Below are positions 21,701 through 29,706 of a stretch of DNA of 34,668 nt, in pieces. Under the pieces are notes generated by a model. That model was not told where the DNA came from and did no database searches. It was given only the letters and a program-made list of their open reading frames with translations. The number at the start of each line of letters is the position of its first letter. Position 1 is the first letter of the stretch. The position numbers and the translations under genes are program-made. This stretch comes from a virus. The DNA is taken from the IMG/VR virus record IMGVR_UViG_3300020404_000089, positions 1-34,668 of that record. The stretch is one strand, 5' to 3'.

Positions 21701-22276
21701 TTAAGCCTCGTCAAAAGTCTTGCTTGCCGAATCGAATGTAACACTTATCGAATCAAAGGTCGATGCTGATGTTGTTGATGCTACGCCAGCAGCAGCGGTC
21801 ACAACGCCACCACCACCTCTTATGCCACCAGTGGTCGCCGTTTCGCCAGTAATTGTAATTGTATACGAGTTGGCATCAACAACAGTAATTGTATACCCCG
21901 CAGCTTTTTCCAGAGCGGTTGTTGAAAAACCGTCAAATGCTTGTGTTTTACGGAAAATAACAACATTGGATGTGCTTCGACTATGAGACGGTTCAAACAC
22001 GGTAATCACAGAAGAACCCGCGCTACCTGACTGAAAAGGATTCATTATCAGTAGAATTTGTCCTGCTACCTCGGTAACTGTGTCTGGTCGTGGATCACGA
22101 AGAGCCTGAAGGTCTGCTATCACTCTTCTTGGTTCTAGTTGAGGATGCTTCTCTTCATACTCATCCTCTCCAACAAGCAATCCGTTCCATTCTTTCCGCA
22201 TATTTCGCAGGCGGTATCGAAAACCAGAACGATCTGATATTCCGTATGCATCTTTACCGACTGCAAATCTAGCCAT
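21701..22276 (-). CDS. Connector-region virion protein, 191 aa
   Basis: The N terminus (FAVGKDAYGISDRSGFRYRL, then MRKEWNGLLVGEDEYEEKHP) is charged and aromatic; I recall it as the start of a conserved protein of marine phage head-tail regions. Around residue 80 it becomes Ser/Thr/Val-rich beta (SSVITVFEPSHSRSTSNVVI and GYTITVVDANSYTITITGE). The C terminus is Gly/Ser-rich (GGIRGGGGVVTAAAG). A neck or tail-surface component is inferred from position between two adaptor-like genes. Function not known. It abuts the next gene directly and overlaps the previous one by one base. Confidence 0.6.
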   Translation of the reverse strand: MARFAVGKDAYGISDRSGFRYRLRNMRKEWNGLLVGEDEYEEKHPQLEPRRVIADLQALRDPRPDTVTEVAGQILLIMNPFQSGSAGSSVITVFEPSHSRSTSNVVIFRKTQAFDGFSTTALEKAAGYTITVVDANSYTITITGETATTGGIRGGGGVVTAAAGVASTTSASTFDSISVTFDSASKTFDEA

Positions 22277-22941
22277 TACACCCTCAGATATTGAATATCA
22301 GGCTGAAGTTTTAAAGAAACCCTATCCTCGTCCTCATCCGCTGCGCGTTGAAATTCTTCTTCATACAACGTTTTTAAAAGCTGCACACGTTCTGGAGCTT
22401 TTTTTAGTGCAATATAATAAGCCATACCAGCCGCTGCACATGGAAGAAAACGAAAAGGTAATTCCATTGTGTTTACTAAAGTATCCGCATCTTCTATGCG
22501 TCTTACATAGTAGTAAACAAGTTGATCAGTGCTGTTTTCTGGTGTAGGCCATAACGTTATTTCAGGCGAGATCTGTCTATTGAAGAAATATTGAGAAGGT
22601 CTACCCTCTGTAGTTTTTGAGGGCTGAGATAAATAGTTGCTTCTACTGATCTTACTCACTGTAAAGTCTGTGTTACTTCTTCTAAGTACAACCTCTAAGA
22701 GGTCTACAACATCAGCACCCAGTGTAACTGTAGCTTGACCAGACGTTAACGTAGTTGTGGCTTGACGAACAGTCCAAAGATTAACTCCTCTATTCGCCCA
22801 ATCAGCGAACATCAAGTTCATAGAACGCCTAGCTGTTCTCGCATCGTATCCGGTGCGGACTTCAAGTCCGCACCTTTCATACGCTTCTTCAATGATCTCA
22901 GCTACGTCAAGATCAAAATCTCTTGAATTTGAGGTTGCCAT
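22276..22941 (-). CDS. Head-tail connector/adaptor-like protein, 221 aa
   Basis: The N-terminal helix DLDVAEIIEEAYERCGLEVR, then DARTARRSMNLMFADWANRG and NLWTVRQATTTLTSGQATVT, is a pattern associated with P22 gp4-like or T7 gp11-like connector proteins. It has PSQYFFNRQISPEITLWPTP and QLVYYYVRRIEDADTLVNTM, and a C-terminal helix. Length (221) is close to known connectors. It probably assembles on the portal ring after packaging. With the 215-residue protein it makes two adaptor-like genes; one may replace the other or they may form successive rings. Confidence 0.65.
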   Translation of the reverse strand: MATSNSRDFDLDVAEIIEEAYERCGLEVRTGYDARTARRSMNLMFADWANRGVNLWTVRQATTTLTSGQATVTLGADVVDLLEVVLRRSNTDFTVSKISRSNYLSQPSKTTEGRPSQYFFNRQISPEITLWPTPENSTDQLVYYYVRRIEDADTLVNTMELPFRFLPCAAAGMAYYIALKKAPERVQLLKTLYEEEFQRAADEDEDRVSLKLQPDIQYLRV

Positions 22942-23130
22942 TTATCTAGCCCTTGTTCTCCCGCCTTTACGCATCTTTTTGACGCTACCGCCACCTTTCA
23001 TACGCCGCATCTTTTTGATGCTACCGCCGCCTCGCATCTTTTTAAGGCTACCGCCACCCTTCATTTTTTTGATGCTACCGCCACCCTTCAAGCCGATACG
23101 CTTTTTCATTTTCTTTTTTGACCCTGCCAT
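22942..23130 (-). CDS. Highly basic micro-protein of KGGGSIKKM repeats, 62 aa
   Basis: Nearly the whole protein is Lys, Arg, Gly, Ser and Met. Four copies of (K/R)GGGS(I/L/V)KKM lie at residues 15-23, 24-32, 33-41 and 45-53, with a basic lead (MAGSKKKMKKR) and tail (RKGGRTRAR). There is almost no acidic residue, so the net charge is strongly positive. The start at 23130 has AGGAGA upstream and overlaps the end of the preceding gene by 25 bases. Flexible Gly-Ser linkers with KKM clamps would suit binding of nucleic acid or of an acidic surface. Small basic Gly-rich proteins are common in marine phages, but their role is not established to my knowledge. Confidence 0.65.
   Translation of the reverse strand: MAGSKKKMKKRIGLKGGGSIKKMKGGGSLKKMRGGGSIKKMRRMKGGGSVKKMRKGGRTRAR
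22972..23088 (-). repeat. Imperfect 27-base tandem repeats coding for KGGGSxKKM
   Basis: Three adjacent 27-base units and a fourth separated by an extra 9 bases (codons R-R-M) code for the four KGGGSxKKM copies. Units differ by a few bases, mostly synonymous or conservative, so the peptide is kept while the DNA drifts. Confidence 0.8.
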
Positions 23131-23666
23131 TTTAGTCTCCTGTAGTATTCCTGGCGTTGATGATAAGATGAAGAGCCACCGTAATATTCTTCACAAGTAT
23201 CGTAATAACCCTTCTCTCTGAGCTGATCTGAAGCCTCTTGTAGCTTTGTTAATCTTTGCAAAAAAACAATAGCATATGGCTCCTCATCAGTCATCTCTAT
23301 TTCATCGTCTAATAAGTCGTTGTCGTCAGACTCAGGATGAAATCCCATAAGAAACATATCTTTAGTGCTATGTTTACCCTTAGATATGCTTTCGTTCATG
23401 TTATCCAAAAACTCATAAAATTCATCAAATTCAAAAAAATCGTGATCTACTAAAATAATAACTTCCTTTGAATCATCCCACTCATCAATTGCTTTGTACA
23501 GCACCTTCCAGCTTTTTGTTTTCTTAAAAATAAAACCTACTTTGTTGTCTCTCCATGCTTTTTTAGCGTATGGACACACAGGTAAACCGTTATAATTATC
23601 ACTTGTTTGTTCAAGAACAGAAGCAGACCAGCGTTTTATTTCTTCAATCACTTCTTTTTCGTTCAT
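23106..23666 (-). CDS. Acidic protein with PVCPYAKKAW motif, 186 aa
   Basis: The product is acidic, in contrast to its neighbours. It has VIEEIKRWSASVLEQT, then NYNGLPVCPYAKKAWRDNKV, GFIFKKTKSWKVLYKAIDEW and EVIILVDHDFFEFDEFYEFL. Later it has GFHPESDDNDLLDDEIEMTD and a Tyr-rich end (CEEYYGGSSSYHQRQEYYRR). I recall the PVCPYAKKA motif in small proteins of marine phages and bacteria (similar in style to the DUF1415 LCPFAK motif), without an established function. A single Cys in a conserved loop could be redox-active or bind metal; this is inference. An acidic protein amid very basic ones could be a partner or inhibitor. Confidence 0.6.
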   Translation of the reverse strand: MNEKEVIEEIKRWSASVLEQTSDNYNGLPVCPYAKKAWRDNKVGFIFKKTKSWKVLYKAIDEWDDSKEVIILVDHDFFEFDEFYEFLDNMNESISKGKHSTKDMFLMGFHPESDDNDLLDDEIEMTDEEPYAIVFLQRLTKLQEASDQLREKGYYDTCEEYYGGSSSYHQRQEYYRRLKWQGQKRK

Positions 23667-23944
23667 TTTTTTGTTCTTCTACGAACAGATTTTACACGCC
23701 TTGGCTTGCCTGCTGGCTGCCCCAAACGTTTCTTTTGAGCAACACGAGAAGACTTTTCTTTTGAAGACATTTCTTTGGTTGTCTTCGGGGTTTTGGATGA
23801 TACCCGCTTTGACGGGCGACAATAAGGGACACCACGCTTTTCTCCTTTTTTACGGCCACATTTTTTGCCCGTGCGAACGTCTTTCCAGTCCTCTTTGAAC
23901 CATCGTTTAAGAGCCAGACCAGATTTTGTCTTTCTAACTGCCAT
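23663..23944 (-). CDS. Lys/Arg-rich protein (LKRWFKEDWKDVRTG family), 93 aa
   Basis: The N-terminal third has TKSGLALKRWFKEDWKDVRT, followed by GKKCGRKKGEKRGVPYCRPS with C29 and C42. The rest is a basic Ser/Thr/Lys tail (SSKTPKTTKEMSSKEKSSRV) ending VRRRTKK. I recall this LKxWFKExWxDxxTGKxCGRKK...YCRP pattern from small basic proteins of marine phages and of large algal viruses, where it is an uncharacterised domain (possibly DUF5872; name not certain). Paired cysteines could bind zinc. The tail resembles a histone tail in composition. DNA binding or condensation is likely from charge alone but untested. ATGA overlap with the next gene. Confidence 0.7.
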   Translation of the reverse strand: MAVRKTKSGLALKRWFKEDWKDVRTGKKCGRKKGEKRGVPYCRPSKRVSSKTPKTTKEMSSKEKSSRVAQKKRLGQPAGKPRRVKSVRRRTKK

Positions 23945-23965
23945 CAGGATTGCTCCACCGCGCCT

Positions 23966-24151
23966 TTAGTTCTTTTTCTTCGCCTCGGCAATACTTTGCC
24001 GCAACCTCTCGCTACCGCCGTGCCCTTGATATTTTTGCCGCGAAATTTCCGCTTCGGTTTGGACGGAGAGTTCATCATTAGAATGTCTTACCTTTGCGTT
24101 TAGTAGAGCGATTCTTTCTTTTAGTCTTCTTACTTTTTCCTCCAGTTCCAT
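23966..24151 (-). CDS. Short coiled-coil protein overlapping its neighbour, 61 aa
   Basis: Residues 1-30 form a clear heptad pattern (MELEEKVRRLKERIALLNAK). The C-terminal half is polar (SRQKYQGHGGSERL and SIAEAKKKN). The start ATG at 24151 is preceded by AGGAG about ten bases upstream, so it is likely translated. Its first 74 bases overlap the end of the 60-residue basic gene in another frame. Such an overlap is longer than the usual one to eight bases here. It could be a small assembly factor; function unknown. Confidence 0.55.
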   Translation of the reverse strand: MELEEKVRRLKERIALLNAKVRHSNDELSVQTEAEISRQKYQGHGGSERLRQSIAEAKKKN

Positions 24152-24260
24152 AATTCGCCGCTCCTACCTTTCGACATTTCGCAATGGCACCTGAAGCATA
24201 TGCACTTGGAAAAACCTTGTATCGAGCTTTTACTTTTTTATAACAAGCGTCTTTGGGCAT
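24078..24260 (-). CDS. Small basic protein (KVKARYKVFPSAYASGAIAK family), 60 aa
   Basis: Start chosen at ATG 24260, not the upstream in-frame ATG at 24326: AGAGGAG sits about six bases before the later ATG, just after the previous stop. The product has CYKKVKARYKVFPSAYASGA, then AKCRKVGAANYGTGG and a basic tail (KSKKTKRKNRSTKRKGKTF). C6 and C29 could pair or bind metal. The motif KVxxRYKVFPSAYASGAxxKCRKxG is one I recall in short proteins of pelagic phages and in giant viruses, without known function. This is one of three basic Cys-containing proteins within 1.2 kb. Confidence 0.7.
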   Translation of the reverse strand: MPKDACYKKVKARYKVFPSAYASGAIAKCRKVGAANYGTGGKSKKTKRKNRSTKRKGKTF

Positions 24261-24261
24261 T

Positions 24262-24537
24262 TTAGAACTCCTCTTTGATGGAGGTTTTGAAATTTGTTGT
24301 CGCATCGAACTGCGCGAGATTGCCATCGTATGTCCTCCCTGTGAAGTCCTCCCACATAGGTCTAATCATTTGATGAAGTTGATCTATTTTTTCATTATTA
24401 GCATCAATCTTCAATGCCATGACCGCTACATTTCTATCTACGGCAATAAGTGTTGTTGAAATCCATGTGAGACCAGTTACACATGCACCTATAAAAGCAA
24501 CAAAGATCGTTCCAGCTACAAAATTAGCACTTAACAT
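24262..24537 (-). CDS. Small membrane protein with C-terminal helix, 91 aa
   Basis: Start chosen at ATG 24537: GGAG lies six bases upstream, and the only longer option begins at a TTG. The N terminus is hydrophobic (VAGTIFVAFIGACVTGLTWI), a single membrane span near residues 7-27. The next part (AVMALKIDANNEKIDQLHQM) is a helix that could be a coiled coil. The end (PMWEDFTGRTYDGNLAQFD) is polar. The gene overlaps the end of the basic 95-residue gene by seven bases. Membrane attachment with a cytoplasmic coiled coil is the likely topology. Function unknown; a lysis or superinfection role is possible. Confidence 0.6.
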   Translation of the reverse strand: MLSANFVAGTIFVAFIGACVTGLTWISTTLIAVDRNVAVMALKIDANNEKIDQLHQMIRPMWEDFTGRTYDGNLAQFDATTNFKTSIKEEF

Positions 24538-24818
24538 TTCCATCTCCGCCGTGCAGCGCAAATACGTTTTTTGGGTGTTTTGCTACAATTAATATTGTGC
24601 ATCTTCATCTGGCCTTTTGAACGGCTACAGTATGATGCGCGACGTTTAGCTGCTTTTGACCCCTTCTTTACCTTACCAGTAACAGCGGTCTTTAACTTTG
24701 ACCCTGGGTTGGCGCGGCGGTACGCCGCCACACCAGCCTTGGTCATTCCCGCTCCAGACTTTGTGGAGCGGAAATTTTTCTTGTTACGCTTTGGCATTTT
24801 GGCTGGTTTTCTAGCCAT
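24531..24818 (-). CDS. Lys/Arg-rich protein with four cysteines, 95 aa
   Basis: Start chosen at ATG 24818, which overlaps the upstream TAA (TAATG); the longer reading would need a GTG inside the previous gene. The product is strongly basic: RKPAKMPKRNKKNFRSTKSG, then AGMTKAGVAAYRRANPGSKL, KTAVTGKVKKGSKAAKRRAS, with C64, C78, C87 and C95 in the last third (YCSRSKGQMKMHNINCSK and ICAARRRWKC). I recall GAGMTKAGVAxYRRxNPGSKLKTAVT as a conserved domain in small proteins of marine phages and giant viruses (possibly DUF6321; name not certain). The cysteines could form a zinc site. A nucleic-acid-binding role is suggested by charge only. Confidence 0.7.
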   Translation of the reverse strand: MARKPAKMPKRNKKNFRSTKSGAGMTKAGVAAYRRANPGSKLKTAVTGKVKKGSKAAKRRASYCSRSKGQMKMHNINCSKTPKKRICAARRRWKC

Positions 24819-25773: not shown

Positions 25774-26685
25774 TTATGCACCAGGTGAACCGAATACACA
25801 ACGAGGATCGGAGAAGCCGAAGCTGTAACGCTCACGAGCCTTGAAGCGCATGTTACCTGTGTCAAAGTCTGCTTCCATCTGTGTTGACAGTGGAACACGC
25901 TCAAAGTGGAGGAATCCACGAGGAGCATCTGTCAACAGGAAGAATGCATCCGTATCAGTAAGGAAGTCGTTAACGGCATAACCGTCAGGCAACATACCCA
26001 TTGAACGAAGTGCATTGACATCATTGTCAGCAGTACCCACACGAAGATTTGAAACCATCAGACGCTCGGCAACAAACTGTAGTTGACGAGGAACAACAAG
26101 TTTCATTCCGCGTAGAGCAACCTTCAAACCACGCTCATCAACAAAACCAGCAATGCTAATCAGAGCGTCCTCAAGAGAGGTTTCGTTCAAATCAGCGGCA
26201 GTGCTTGGCTCGTTGTTGAATGTGTTACCATTTGTCAATGGGTGAGATGCATCACACAATGCAACTCCGTCACCACCAGCAAACGCACCAGCCGAGAATG
26301 CATTGTTTAGAATGCTGGCTGCTTTGACCTGCTTGGTATGTGCCATTGAACGGGCAAGAGCACGAGTGTAGCGGCTTGAAAGACGATCATAAAGATTGTC
26401 CTCGACTGCTTCTTCGGTAATGCTAAATGCCAAGGCAATGGTTTCATGGTTGTACCGAGCGGTAAATGCTTCGTTGGCATCATCAAAACTGATAGCAGAA
26501 CCCTCATCCTTAGTGGGAGCAGCTCCAAAGCCAGAAAGCATTACCTCTTCTTCAAATGCACGATCTGAAGACTCGGTGGTGAAAATTTCGGCGTGCTGGT
26601 TTTCATACCTGTCATACTCCATTCCAAATAGAGCATTTAGGCCAGGCTCCAGCTCTTTCGCCAGTTGTGCGCGAGAAATAGCCAT
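25774..26685 (-). CDS. Major capsid protein, 303 aa
   Basis: The N terminus reads SRAQLAKELEPGLNALFGME, then YDRYENQHAEIFTTESSDRA. It has EEVMLSGFGAAPTKDEGSAI followed by SFDDANEAFTARYNHETIAL, then SITEEAVEDNLYDRLSSRYT and ARSMAHTKQVKAASILNNAF. Near the C terminus is DTDAFFLLTDAPRGFLHFER and RERYSFGFSDPRCVFGSPGA. This is the pattern of a HK97-fold coat protein of the Mu gpT-like type found in marine phages. It sits after the scaffold and is followed by strong terminators, consistent with high expression. No protease gene is visible here, so maturation cleavage is unclear. SD: AGGAGG before the ATG. Confidence 0.85.
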   Translation of the reverse strand: MAISRAQLAKELEPGLNALFGMEYDRYENQHAEIFTTESSDRAFEEEVMLSGFGAAPTKDEGSAISFDDANEAFTARYNHETIALAFSITEEAVEDNLYDRLSSRYTRALARSMAHTKQVKAASILNNAFSAGAFAGGDGVALCDASHPLTNGNTFNNEPSTAADLNETSLEDALISIAGFVDERGLKVALRGMKLVVPRQLQFVAERLMVSNLRVGTADNDVNALRSMGMLPDGYAVNDFLTDTDAFFLLTDAPRGFLHFERVPLSTQMEADFDTGNMRFKARERYSFGFSDPRCVFGSPGA

Positions 26686-27834: not shown

Positions 27835-28743
27835 TTAGTCCTTTACATACTTAGCGTATTCTTCAAGAGGAACACCAAGTTTCTTAGCCATTGCTACTTG
27901 TGACGGTGTCAACTTGACGGTCCTGCGCCCCTGTTTTGAACTGCGGGAAGCGGAAGTATCAGCCGAGGCGACCCTTGTACTTCCTCCGGTTTGTTTTCCC
28001 CCCATCTCATTTGGAAAACGAGATTTTAAACGGGAATCCAACTCATCATAATACTCTTCGCCCTCTGGGTCAAACCCTTCTTCGGTCACAAGTTTATTAT
28101 GAATAACAAAAGCAGCTTGAGTCATTATCTCATCTTCACCAAACCACTCATTCTTTTCAGCCCACTTCTGCGCTTTAGGATCGGGCTTTGATGCGGGTTG
28201 AGCCTGTTGTTGCGGTACAGGTTGAGCCTCCTGCTGTGGCACAGGTTGCTGTTCCTGTCGCTGTTTTGCTAATCTGAAACGTTCTTGTTCTATGGAAATT
28301 TTAGATAAAGCCTGTTGAGCGTCAAACATCGCATCAACGTCACCTCGATCATGAGCTTCACGATAAGCTCTTTTTGCTGTGTCTAGTTGAGAATCAATGC
28401 GAGTGCCGTATTCGCTCAAGTATCCTTGGTCTAGATTTGTTAGACGAGACTTTAAATCCTCGTTCTCTTTTTTAAGAACATCTGCGATACGGGCAGCTTC
28501 TTCTTTATCTCTCTCCGCATAGCGATACTTTTCAGTAAGTTTTTTAATCCGCTTCTGGACACCTTTACTGTAGTTGTCCAGTTCCTCTCCCTCTGCGTCT
28601 TCTTTAACGGTGACTTTTGGCTTATCGTCAAGCTCTAAGTCCTGCTGAACAGGTTCCTTTTCAGCAGACTCGTCAATTGTAACTTCTACATTTTCTTCAA
28701 CAACTTGTGCTTCAGCCTCTGCCACTACCGCCTCCTTAGACAT
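27835..28743 (-). CDS. Scaffolding protein candidate, 302 aa
   Basis: The N terminus is very acidic (VVEENVEVTIDESAEKEPVQ). From about 55 to 160 it is a long coiled coil (GVQKRIKKLTEKYRYAERDK, ENEDLKSRLTNL). A QPVPQQEAQPVPQQQAQP linker follows, then a helical part with WFGEDEIMTQAAFVIHNKLV. The C-terminal ~30 residues are basic (QGRRTVKLTPSQVAMAKKLG and LEEYAKYVKD). Acidic/helical with a basic C-terminal helix is the pattern of phage scaffolds, whose C terminus binds the coat. It overlaps the GroES gene by eight bases. The coat gene follows two genes later. Confidence 0.75.
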   Translation of the reverse strand: MSKEAVVAEAEAQVVEENVEVTIDESAEKEPVQQDLELDDKPKVTVKEDAEGEELDNYSKGVQKRIKKLTEKYRYAERDKEEAARIADVLKKENEDLKSRLTNLDQGYLSEYGTRIDSQLDTAKRAYREAHDRGDVDAMFDAQQALSKISIEQERFRLAKQRQEQQPVPQQEAQPVPQQQAQPASKPDPKAQKWAEKNEWFGEDEIMTQAAFVIHNKLVTEEGFDPEGEEYYDELDSRLKSRFPNEMGGKQTGGSTRVASADTSASRSSKQGRRTVKLTPSQVAMAKKLGVPLEEYAKYVKD

Positions 28744-29203
28744 GTTTCACATCATCTGGTTCAAGGATCGTAGCAATGACCTCATCGTCATTGATAATGC
28801 GAACCTCACCGCCATCAATTTTAAACCTGGACCCTGCATATCTGCCAATGCACACCCACTGACCCTCTTCACACCAAGGTTCAGGACTGTCACCAAATTT
28901 GTTAGGGTCTTGATACGCCAAAGGCCCTAGCTTTAAAACATAGGCCACCACAGTGGCTAATGCTTCACGCTCTCGTGCCTCATTGGGAATTATGATGCCG
29001 CCCTCTGTCTTCGTCTTACCTTGATAAGGCATGACAAGTATCCTCCAACCAGTTGGTTGAGGCAGGCGTTCTTTTAAAGATTTGTCTACTAAACTGGGGT
29101 CTAAAACTCGTTTTTCAGCCTCTACATAAGCGCCTTCTGTTGATACAGGTTCTTTTGCTTTAGACTTTGCGATATGGTCAGGAACGTATAATGTCTTCGC
29201 CAT
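28736..29203 (-). CDS. GroES-like co-chaperonin, 155 aa
   Basis: Residues ~50-150 have the Cpn10 fold pattern: PTGWRILVMPYQGKTKTEGG with IIIPNEAREREALATVVAYV (strand, mobile loop, strand), then LGPLAYQDP, WCEEGQWVCIGRYAGSRFKI and VRIINDDEVIATILEP. A ~45-residue N-terminal extension (PDHIAKSKAKEPVSTEGAYV) is absent from host GroES. It probably works with host GroEL to fold the coat protein, as T4 gp31 does. The loop TKTEGGIIIP holds the region that contacts GroEL. It stands immediately before the scaffold gene, and the start overlaps the previous gene by 26 bases. Confidence 0.85.
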   Translation of the reverse strand: MAKTLYVPDHIAKSKAKEPVSTEGAYVEAEKRVLDPSLVDKSLKERLPQPTGWRILVMPYQGKTKTEGGIIIPNEAREREALATVVAYVLKLGPLAYQDPNKFGDSPEPWCEEGQWVCIGRYAGSRFKIDGGEVRIINDDEVIATILEPDDVKHV

Positions 29204-29397: not shown

Positions 29398-29706
29398 TTA
29401 AAATGTCCCTGCGAACTTTTTACCTCTTACAACGGCACCACAACCTCGGCTCATATTAGGTGCATCTACGCTCATTCCCTTGCTAAAACCTTTTACACCA
29501 CGACCTTTTAAAATGTCTTTTTGTGTAACTTTTCCATCACCTGTCAAATCAGGAAAACTAGTCATACCGCCGCCTACAAAAGTTTTAACATCATCATCAG
29601 AATCGTTGCCTCTTTCTTTAAAAAGATCAGACTCGGCAAGCTCTTTAGCATCTTCACTACCAAACTTTTCAAGTTCTTCTAATTCAATAATTCTTGGATC
29701 AGTCAT
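29398..29706 (-). CDS. Protein with dockerin-like calcium loop and RGCGAVVRGKKF tail, 102 aa
   Basis: The N-terminal half is acidic (IIELEELEKFGSEDAKELAE). Residues 53-64 (DLTGDGKVTQKD) match an EF-hand or dockerin calcium loop, with D53, T55, D57 and D64 as candidate ligands. The C terminus (MSRGCGAVVRGKKFAGTF) is basic and ends in a motif I recall from many small marine phage proteins. The combination of an acidic part, a calcium loop and a basic tail suggests a virion or assembly protein rather than an enzyme. A second EF-hand-like loop lies at 31343-31663. Confidence 0.6.
   Translation of the reverse strand: MTDPRIIELEELEKFGSEDAKELAESDLFKERGNDSDDDVKTFVGGGMTSFPDLTGDGKVTQKDILKGRGVKGFSKGMSVDAPNMSRGCGAVVRGKKFAGTF

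Follow-up and report, generated by a model that had tools for sequence, protein, structure and literature searches.

A cluster of small basic proteins beside a phage coat gene: candidate internal head proteins packaged with DNA

Why does a tailed phage keep a run of tiny, lysine- and arginine-rich proteins directly beside its coat gene? The question is raised by virus record IMGVR_UViG_3300020404_000089, a stretch of 34,668 bases that we call the window and whose genes lie on the - strand. Five such proteins, here named M1, M2, E44, M3 and REP62, are encoded between the coat protein and a head-tail adaptor. We consider it reasonably probable that M1, M2 (with E44) and M3, and probably REP62 as well, belong to the internal proteins of the head: they would be packaged into it and probably ejected with the DNA. 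This reading draws on a gene set and gene order conserved among relatives, on the same modules occurring as fusions in T4-like cyanophages, on protease-type sites enriched at module borders, and on N-termini that resemble capsid targeting sequences.

The basic proteins and their cysteines

A sequence-only reading of the window had described four very basic proteins (95, 60, 93 and 62 aa), interleaved with an acidic protein, a membrane protein and a coiled coil. All four are present, and a fifth basic protein, E44 (44 aa), had been overlooked. The features at issue are as follows.

M1, 24531..24818, - strand: 95 aa, basic, DUF6321 (PF19846), 4 Cys (Pfam E=1.8e-12; 175 distinct homologues)
M2, 24078..24260, - strand: 60 aa, basic, two invariant Cys (PHROG 727/38880/3477)
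E44, 23944..24078, - strand: 44 aa, basic, ARGCGxVxxxRRKxTK motif (codon-position test and 103 loci with M2+E44 as a single open reading frame, ORF)
M3, 23663..23944, - strand: 93 aa, basic, DUF5872 (PF19197), two invariant Cys (Pfam E=7.8e-15; 167 distinct homologues)
REP62, 22942..23130, - strand: 62 aa, GGGSIKKM-repeat, no acidic residue (46 loci; charge)
61-aa 'coiled coil' ORF, 23966..24151, - strand: not a gene; overlaps M2 and E44 (codon-position substitutions)

To separate real from false frames, we compared the M2, E44 and coiled-coil frames of the window with those of seven relatives by codon position. Against one of these (L034), substitutions at positions 1, 2 and 3 number 7, 5 and 22 in M2 and 5, 5 and 23 in E44, while the coiled-coil frame shows 22, 8 and 8. 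Because changes concentrate at position 3 in M2 and E44 and at position 1 in the coiled-coil frame, E44 is a real gene and the coiled coil of the sequence-only reading is not coding. The E44 start codon lies inside the M2 stop codon (TAATG), and in most relatives, among them the 103 single-ORF loci, E44 forms the C-terminus of M2. M2 itself, the SAYASGAIAKCRK motif protein with the core KDACY-x-KVKARYKVFPSAYASGAIAKC, has an AGAGGAG Shine-Dalgarno stretch upstream of its ATG (60-aa form).

The five proteins are set apart by their charge. Net charge per 100 residues is +40 for REP62, +34 for M1, and +32 for M3, E44 and M2, making them the most basic products of the 46 genes of the window (the next gene reaches +4); five genes placed at random would be clustered this tightly with P=4e-4. 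M1 contains no acidic residue at all. The paired cysteines noted earlier proved to be conserved: the two positions of the pair are occupied in 175/175 and 174/175 M1 sequences, in 130/131 and 131/131 M2 sequences, and in 166/167 and 167/167 M3 sequences. The two extra cysteines of M1 occur together in 50 of the 175 sequences, are both missing in 125 and never occur singly; this joint gain or loss would be consistent with a bond or a common ligand, and kinship among the sequences also contributes to it. The pairs themselves could be disulfides or metal sites.

M1 reaches 48.2 bits against the DUF6321 gathering cut-off of 28.5, and M3 reaches 55.9 bits against the DUF5872 cut-off of 27.5; a profile search matched no Pfam family to M2. 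To our knowledge the M1, M2 and M3 families have no known function, DUF6321 and DUF5872 being names only. No NCBIfam family was found for the small cluster proteins, and PADLOC returned M3 only, with a weak match that is not meaningful (E=0.0072). AlphaFold2 modeled M1 as three helices (predicted local distance difference test score, pLDDT, 80.8) and M2, weakly, as two (pLDDT 62.7). Single-sequence and profile searches of the PDB gave no match for M1, one chance match for M3 (4iab, E=1.8) and only chance-level matches to ribosomal P0 for M2; a Foldseek search with the M1 model gave no PDB match, and its best BFVD matches were DUF6321 or unnamed proteins. A search of open-access full text found one paper that names DUF6321 or DUF5872, an algal virus genome. 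The DUF5872 annotation in CpV-BQ1 (PMC12085832) agrees with the occurrence in algal viruses named in the sequence-only reading.

A separate observation concerns protein C-termini. Tags of the form RG[CAMT]GxAxxGxxFxGxY/F occur on other, otherwise dissimilar proteins of related contigs, E44 has ARGCGxV, and an acidic 102-aa protein of the window (29398-29706) has the C-terminus MSRGCGAVVRGKKFAGTF. The RG[CM]G pattern was seen at 148 C-termini, mostly of M2/E44, against 20 expected from shuffled C-termini, and is possibly a targeting tag.

Relatives, cyanophage fusions and surrounding genes

All counts given here are inflated by related sequences. An IMG/VR sample chosen by similarity to the modules comprises 56 M1 loci flanked by 3.5 kb or more in both directions. 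Within 3.5 kb of M1, and without exception on its strand, lie M3 (49 loci), the major capsid protein (MCP; 42 loci), E44 (38), the adaptor (37) and M2 (33). Since this sample was module-selected, we took a second one anchored on MCP (80 loci, of which 30 extend 3.5 kb or more downstream). One or more of M1, M2, E44, M3 and REP62 occur in 27 of these 30 loci, a figure that describes the state of one broad lineage rather than independent events, because the MCPs of the sample are 86-100% identical. The remaining three (L373, L397 and L402) carry in the same stretch another module, K4 (KMKC...YWSCKxW), and L397 and L402 also carry K5 (LYxNIxxRR...KGAP). The slot that holds the modules is found on either side of MCP. 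The clustering seen in the window is thus that of a conserved set.

M1 was also found on at least nine contigs in a set of bacterial and archaeal genomes. Among those listed, L320, L325 and L327 carry a coat gene of the window phage type and L328 the adaptor, L322, L324 and L326 carry other cluster genes, and L321 and L323 have the M1 match only. Because the listed contigs are all single-cell or metagenome-assembled, they do not point to a cellular gene; judged from them, M1 appears restricted to viruses, which we count in favor of a role in the head.

The modules extend to other phage groups. In Pelagibacter phage HTVC027P, M1 and M3 are two genes apart, and in the T7-like P-SCSP1d, DUF6321 and K5 lie between the coat and tail tubular genes, DUF6321 being likewise beside MCP in the window. 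With the same profiles, HTVC010P, HTVC100P, Ma-LMM01, P-SCSP1d and KBS-P-1A gave M1 and neither M2 nor M3. T4-like cyanophages combine M3, M2, M1, K4 and a further module, CW, variously in single long proteins: M3, M2 and M1 stand in one protein in syn9 (gp114), in S-SRM01 and in 27 M3-M2-M1 ORFs of the cyanophage-type set, and the PHROG 727 profile holds M2 (252-318), CW (317-343) and M1 (360-430) regions. In ACG-2014j, K5 is fused to DUF6321. CW has a Cys pair that is invariant or nearly so, and K4 has conserved Cys at four positions and K5 at none; K4 scores below the DUF5754/Tlr6F gathering cut-off (13.8 bits vs 27.4, E=0.061).

The borders of the fused modules carry a distinctive signal. 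In T4, the gp21 protease cleaves after L/I-x-E, and the propeptides of the internal proteins (IPs), termed capsid targeting sequences (CTS), direct proteins into the head, where CTS positions 4 and 7 matter in targeting, and positions 8 and 10 in processing (PMC9026906). Of the non-redundant cyanophage fusions with M1, numbering 23, 20 have [LIVMF]xE directly before that module, compared with a mean of 0.7 and a maximum of 4 in 2000 shuffles. The same site directly precedes CW in 17/30 cases (shuffled mean 1.2), M2 in 13/29 (1.1) and M3 in 9/15 (0.6), the last becoming 15/15 with a one-residue offset. An ILTE-AAPT stretch lies around residue 50 of the coat protein of S-SZBM1. A linker motif, the 'WR box', showed no significant enrichment.

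The N-termini are of the T4 type as well. T4 ipII and ipIII begin with MKTYQEFIAE, and DUF6321 proteins of T4-like cyanophages begin, for example, with MKTFKQYITE-A (S-SZBM1_192), MKNFAQYIEE-D (P-TIM40), MKSFKQLRIDINE-S (S-RIM44) and MKSFKDLRSDITE-A (S-CAM3), the DUF6321 protein of MED4-213 being an exception. CTS-like stretches also lie upstream of the M1 module in S-RIM14 (KTYEEFVSE), S-CAM7 (KTFAEFCAE) and S-H38 (SFAEFIYE). In T4-like cyanophages the modules are strung together with CTS-like sequences, and appear to be cut apart in the prohead. A literature search for 'cyanophage' with 'capsid targeting sequence' returned a T4 review only.

Two module proteins have been detected by mass spectrometry (MS) in CsCl-purified S-CREM2 virions: gp160 (M3+CW+M2; 7 unique peptides, 13.1%), which is encoded elsewhere in the genome than the first module protein, and gp137 (with M1 at its C-terminus; 4 unique peptides) (PMC10665884, Table 3). 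In this phage a 10-residue N-terminal CTS pattern is shared by 4 of 50 MS-detected proteins, compared with 0 of the 148 remaining ORFs (Fisher p=0.0037, exploratory, as the pattern was fixed after several matches had been seen). Searched for anywhere in the protein, the CTS expression is not enriched among the MS-detected S-CREM2 proteins (p=0.06 strict, 0.10 loose). The head link proposed by the sequence-only reading thus gains support through homologues, by way of CTS-like N-termini, protease-type sites and the S-CREM2 spectra; for the virion of the window phage, presence of the proteins is what we infer.

Several other proteins bear such N-termini or accompany the modules. The four S-CREM2 proteins with the pattern are gp6 (S-adenosylmethionine, S-AdoMet, lyase family), gp13, gp136 and gp154 (cytidylyltransferase), among which the N-termini MKDFDSFLEE, MKDLHSFLTE, MQTFSMFFSE and MKNFSSFLTE are found. 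In S-SZBM1_194 (L236:7253-9376, 707 aa), FITYREFIAE directly precedes an S-AdoMet-lyase-like domain; a signal of the CTS kind is here carried by one likely anti-restriction enzyme or more, as though such an enzyme were cargo of the head. S-SZBM1_195 (L236:9378-9641), an 87-aa protein that adjoins TerS, has the third highest emPAI (exponentially modified protein abundance index) in the virion list and no Pfam family; as a candidate DUF6321 protein it was rejected, having no module match.

The - strand of the window carries portal, GroES-like Cpn10, coat protein, basic cluster, SU10-type adaptor and tail genes, and the cluster reads, in transcription order, P90, M1, MEM, M2, E44, M3, ACID, REP62. 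Neighboring cluster genes abut or overlap, as at M2/E44, an arrangement as in a translationally coupled operon. The acidic and membrane proteins of the sequence-only reading are real, with profile matches in 56 and 97 fetched loci, respectively.

MCP, 25774..26685, - strand: Phage_capsid_4 / Mu gpT-like, bounds the slot upstream (PF25209 E=1.1e-11; PHROG 371)
P90, 24818..25090, - strand: conserved neighbor, a small protein encoded between the coat gene and M1 (132 loci; median offset -284 from M1)
MEM, 24262..24543, - strand: membrane protein with one hydrophobic segment, overlaps the M1 end (profile matches in 97 loci)
ACID, 23106..23666, - strand: 186 aa, acidic, DUF1415-like (PF07209) (Pfam E=2.5e-8; PHROG 28122; 56 loci)
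SU10-type head-tail adaptor, 22276..22941, - strand: downstream border of the slot (PF24175 E=2.5e-16)

MEM starts with a conserved MEML and has a conserved C-terminal PLWEDF. ACID, whose profile score is 34.3 against a PF07209 cut-off of 26, sits beside the basic set without evident reason. The Cpn10 co-chaperonin gene lies at 28736-29203 in the head region, and HTVC027P has one similarly placed.

Competing accounts of the modules

We picture the modules as small basic proteins, most with a Cys pair, that form a mobile kit and that podoviruses such as the window phage keep as one gene per module in a slot among head genes. The proteins would be expressed late together with the coat gene and would enter the prohead, in T4-like phages by way of the CTS followed by protease cutting and in the window phage by another route. 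Their charge would then bring them together with the DNA while it is packaged or afterwards, and they would leave with it on ejection. We infer cleavage, DNA binding and ejection from the features described above. In physical terms, the simplest role would be to neutralize the charge of the packaged DNA; condensation of the DNA, a zinc site and a disulfide are each unproven for these proteins.

Several points weigh against placing these proteins inside the head. The gp137 peptides cover 4.1% of the protein and are not localized (PMC10665884), so that the M1 part itself has not been shown in the virion, and the authors warn that CsCl-purified samples may contain non-virion proteins (PMC10665884). 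In S-SZBM1, the DUF6321 protein S-SZBM1_192 and the basic S-SZBM1_194 are absent from the 30 MS-detected proteins (PMC9146016). A possible reason is low detectability, as M1, M2, M3 and REP62 of the window would each yield 0-3 tryptic peptides of usual length, for a tryptic coverage of 0-40%. Our literature search found no virion proteome for a pelagiphage or for the window lineage, and no mass-spectrometry text was found in the P-SCSP1u cryo-electron microscopy paper. M1, M2, M3, E44 and REP62 of the window have no T4-type N-terminal targeting sequence with a prohead-protease site, and targeting there must therefore differ. Protease-type sites are less regular before M2 (13/29) than before M1, the N-terminal enrichment in S-CREM2 is exploratory, and kinship inflates every count.

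A bolder extension would make six or more basic modules (M1, M2, M3, K4, K5 and CW, conserved Cys occurring in five) a protamine-like nucleoprotein system that circulates among large algal viruses and unrelated tailed phages of aquatic habitats. They would be encoded as separate genes in podoviruses or as prohead-processed polyproteins in T4-like cyanophages, and perhaps be disulfide-locked outside the cell. This we regard as doubtful.

A variant of the internal-head reading, differing only in the role after ejection, holds that the modules are not DNA condensers but ejected effectors with a task in the host cell, countering restriction for instance. T4 IPI is an ejected protein of this kind. 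The CTS-like N-termini of the MS-detected gp6 and gp154 of S-CREM2 point the same way, as does the FITYREFIAE stretch of S-SZBM1_194; the modules themselves, however, match no enzyme or anti-defence family in Pfam or PADLOC, and we give this variant a small chance. As to the data, a host-acting ejected role and a nucleoid-like role are equally compatible with them.

A similarly small chance goes to the view that the modules are DNA-packaging accessories, acting at the terminase or portal and not retained in the virion. Module proteins do lie after TerS and before TerL in syn9, S-SRM01, S-CREM2 and P-TIM40, and in Roseobacter phage CRP-7 M1, M2, M3 and TerL are consecutive. Yet the window, P-SCSP1d and most relatives place these genes by MCP and the adaptor or tail genes, not by the terminase, and both the two module proteins in the S-CREM2 virion list and the protease-type sites of the cyanophage proteins count against this view.

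Proximity to the coat gene, with MCP adjoining in most loci, would also suit minor capsid or inner-lining proteins, cement or clamps on the inner coat face, as would small size and retention as a set. Extreme Lys/Arg content and a module set that varies between genomes are hard to square with such a lining; in T4-like phages, moreover, the modules lie apart from MCP, and the PDB search gave no M1 chain and only chance-level matches for M2 and M3. We rate this account slightly lower. Least probable is that the modules are late-operon nucleic-acid-binding proteins confined to the cell, their S-CREM2 detection being carry-over: the undetected S-SZBM1 DUF6321 protein and the window proteins without a T4-type targeting sequence would agree with this, but border protease-type sites and CTS-like N-termini have no evident use outside the prohead.

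Comparison with known internal head proteins

Were the internal-head reading correct, two DUFs and several unnamed families that recur across hundreds of records of marine phages would gain a concrete and testable virion role, and the old question of what tailed phages pack beside their DNA would become checkable in cultured phages. The data suggest head cargo built from interchangeable basic modules common to several phage groups. The sequence rule of a targeting N-terminus with [LIVMF]xE would also explain the presence of a cytidylyltransferase and an S-AdoMet lyase family protein in cyanophage virions.

The closest known parallel is with the IPs of T4, which are packaged and ejected with the DNA (PMC9026906). 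T4 IPI, IPII and IPIII (and Alt) are small and more basic than acidic, as the modules are, and the cyanophage relatives resemble them in a short targeting N-terminus of like type and in sites of the L/I-x-E kind. The window proteins are likewise small and net positive (44-95 aa, +32 to +40 per 100 residues). However, their Lys+Arg content is 33-40%, compared with 14-19% in the T4 IPs, and they mostly carry Cys pairs; we claim no homology of the mature parts. We do not file the window proteins as T4 IPs, because they are separate genes without a propeptide.

Among named families, M1 and M3 are members of DUF6321 and DUF5872 above the curated cut-offs. PHROG 727, the cyanophage gp114 type, unites in one protein the M2, CW and M1 regions, whereas in the window the modules are separate genes. 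A more distant parallel is offered by the adenovirus core proteins VII and mu, which are very basic, stay with the DNA in the virion and are trimmed at maturation by a protease of the virus; virus and sequence are unrelated, and the analogy is one of mechanism only. Internal head proteins themselves are already known; what would be new here is their form.

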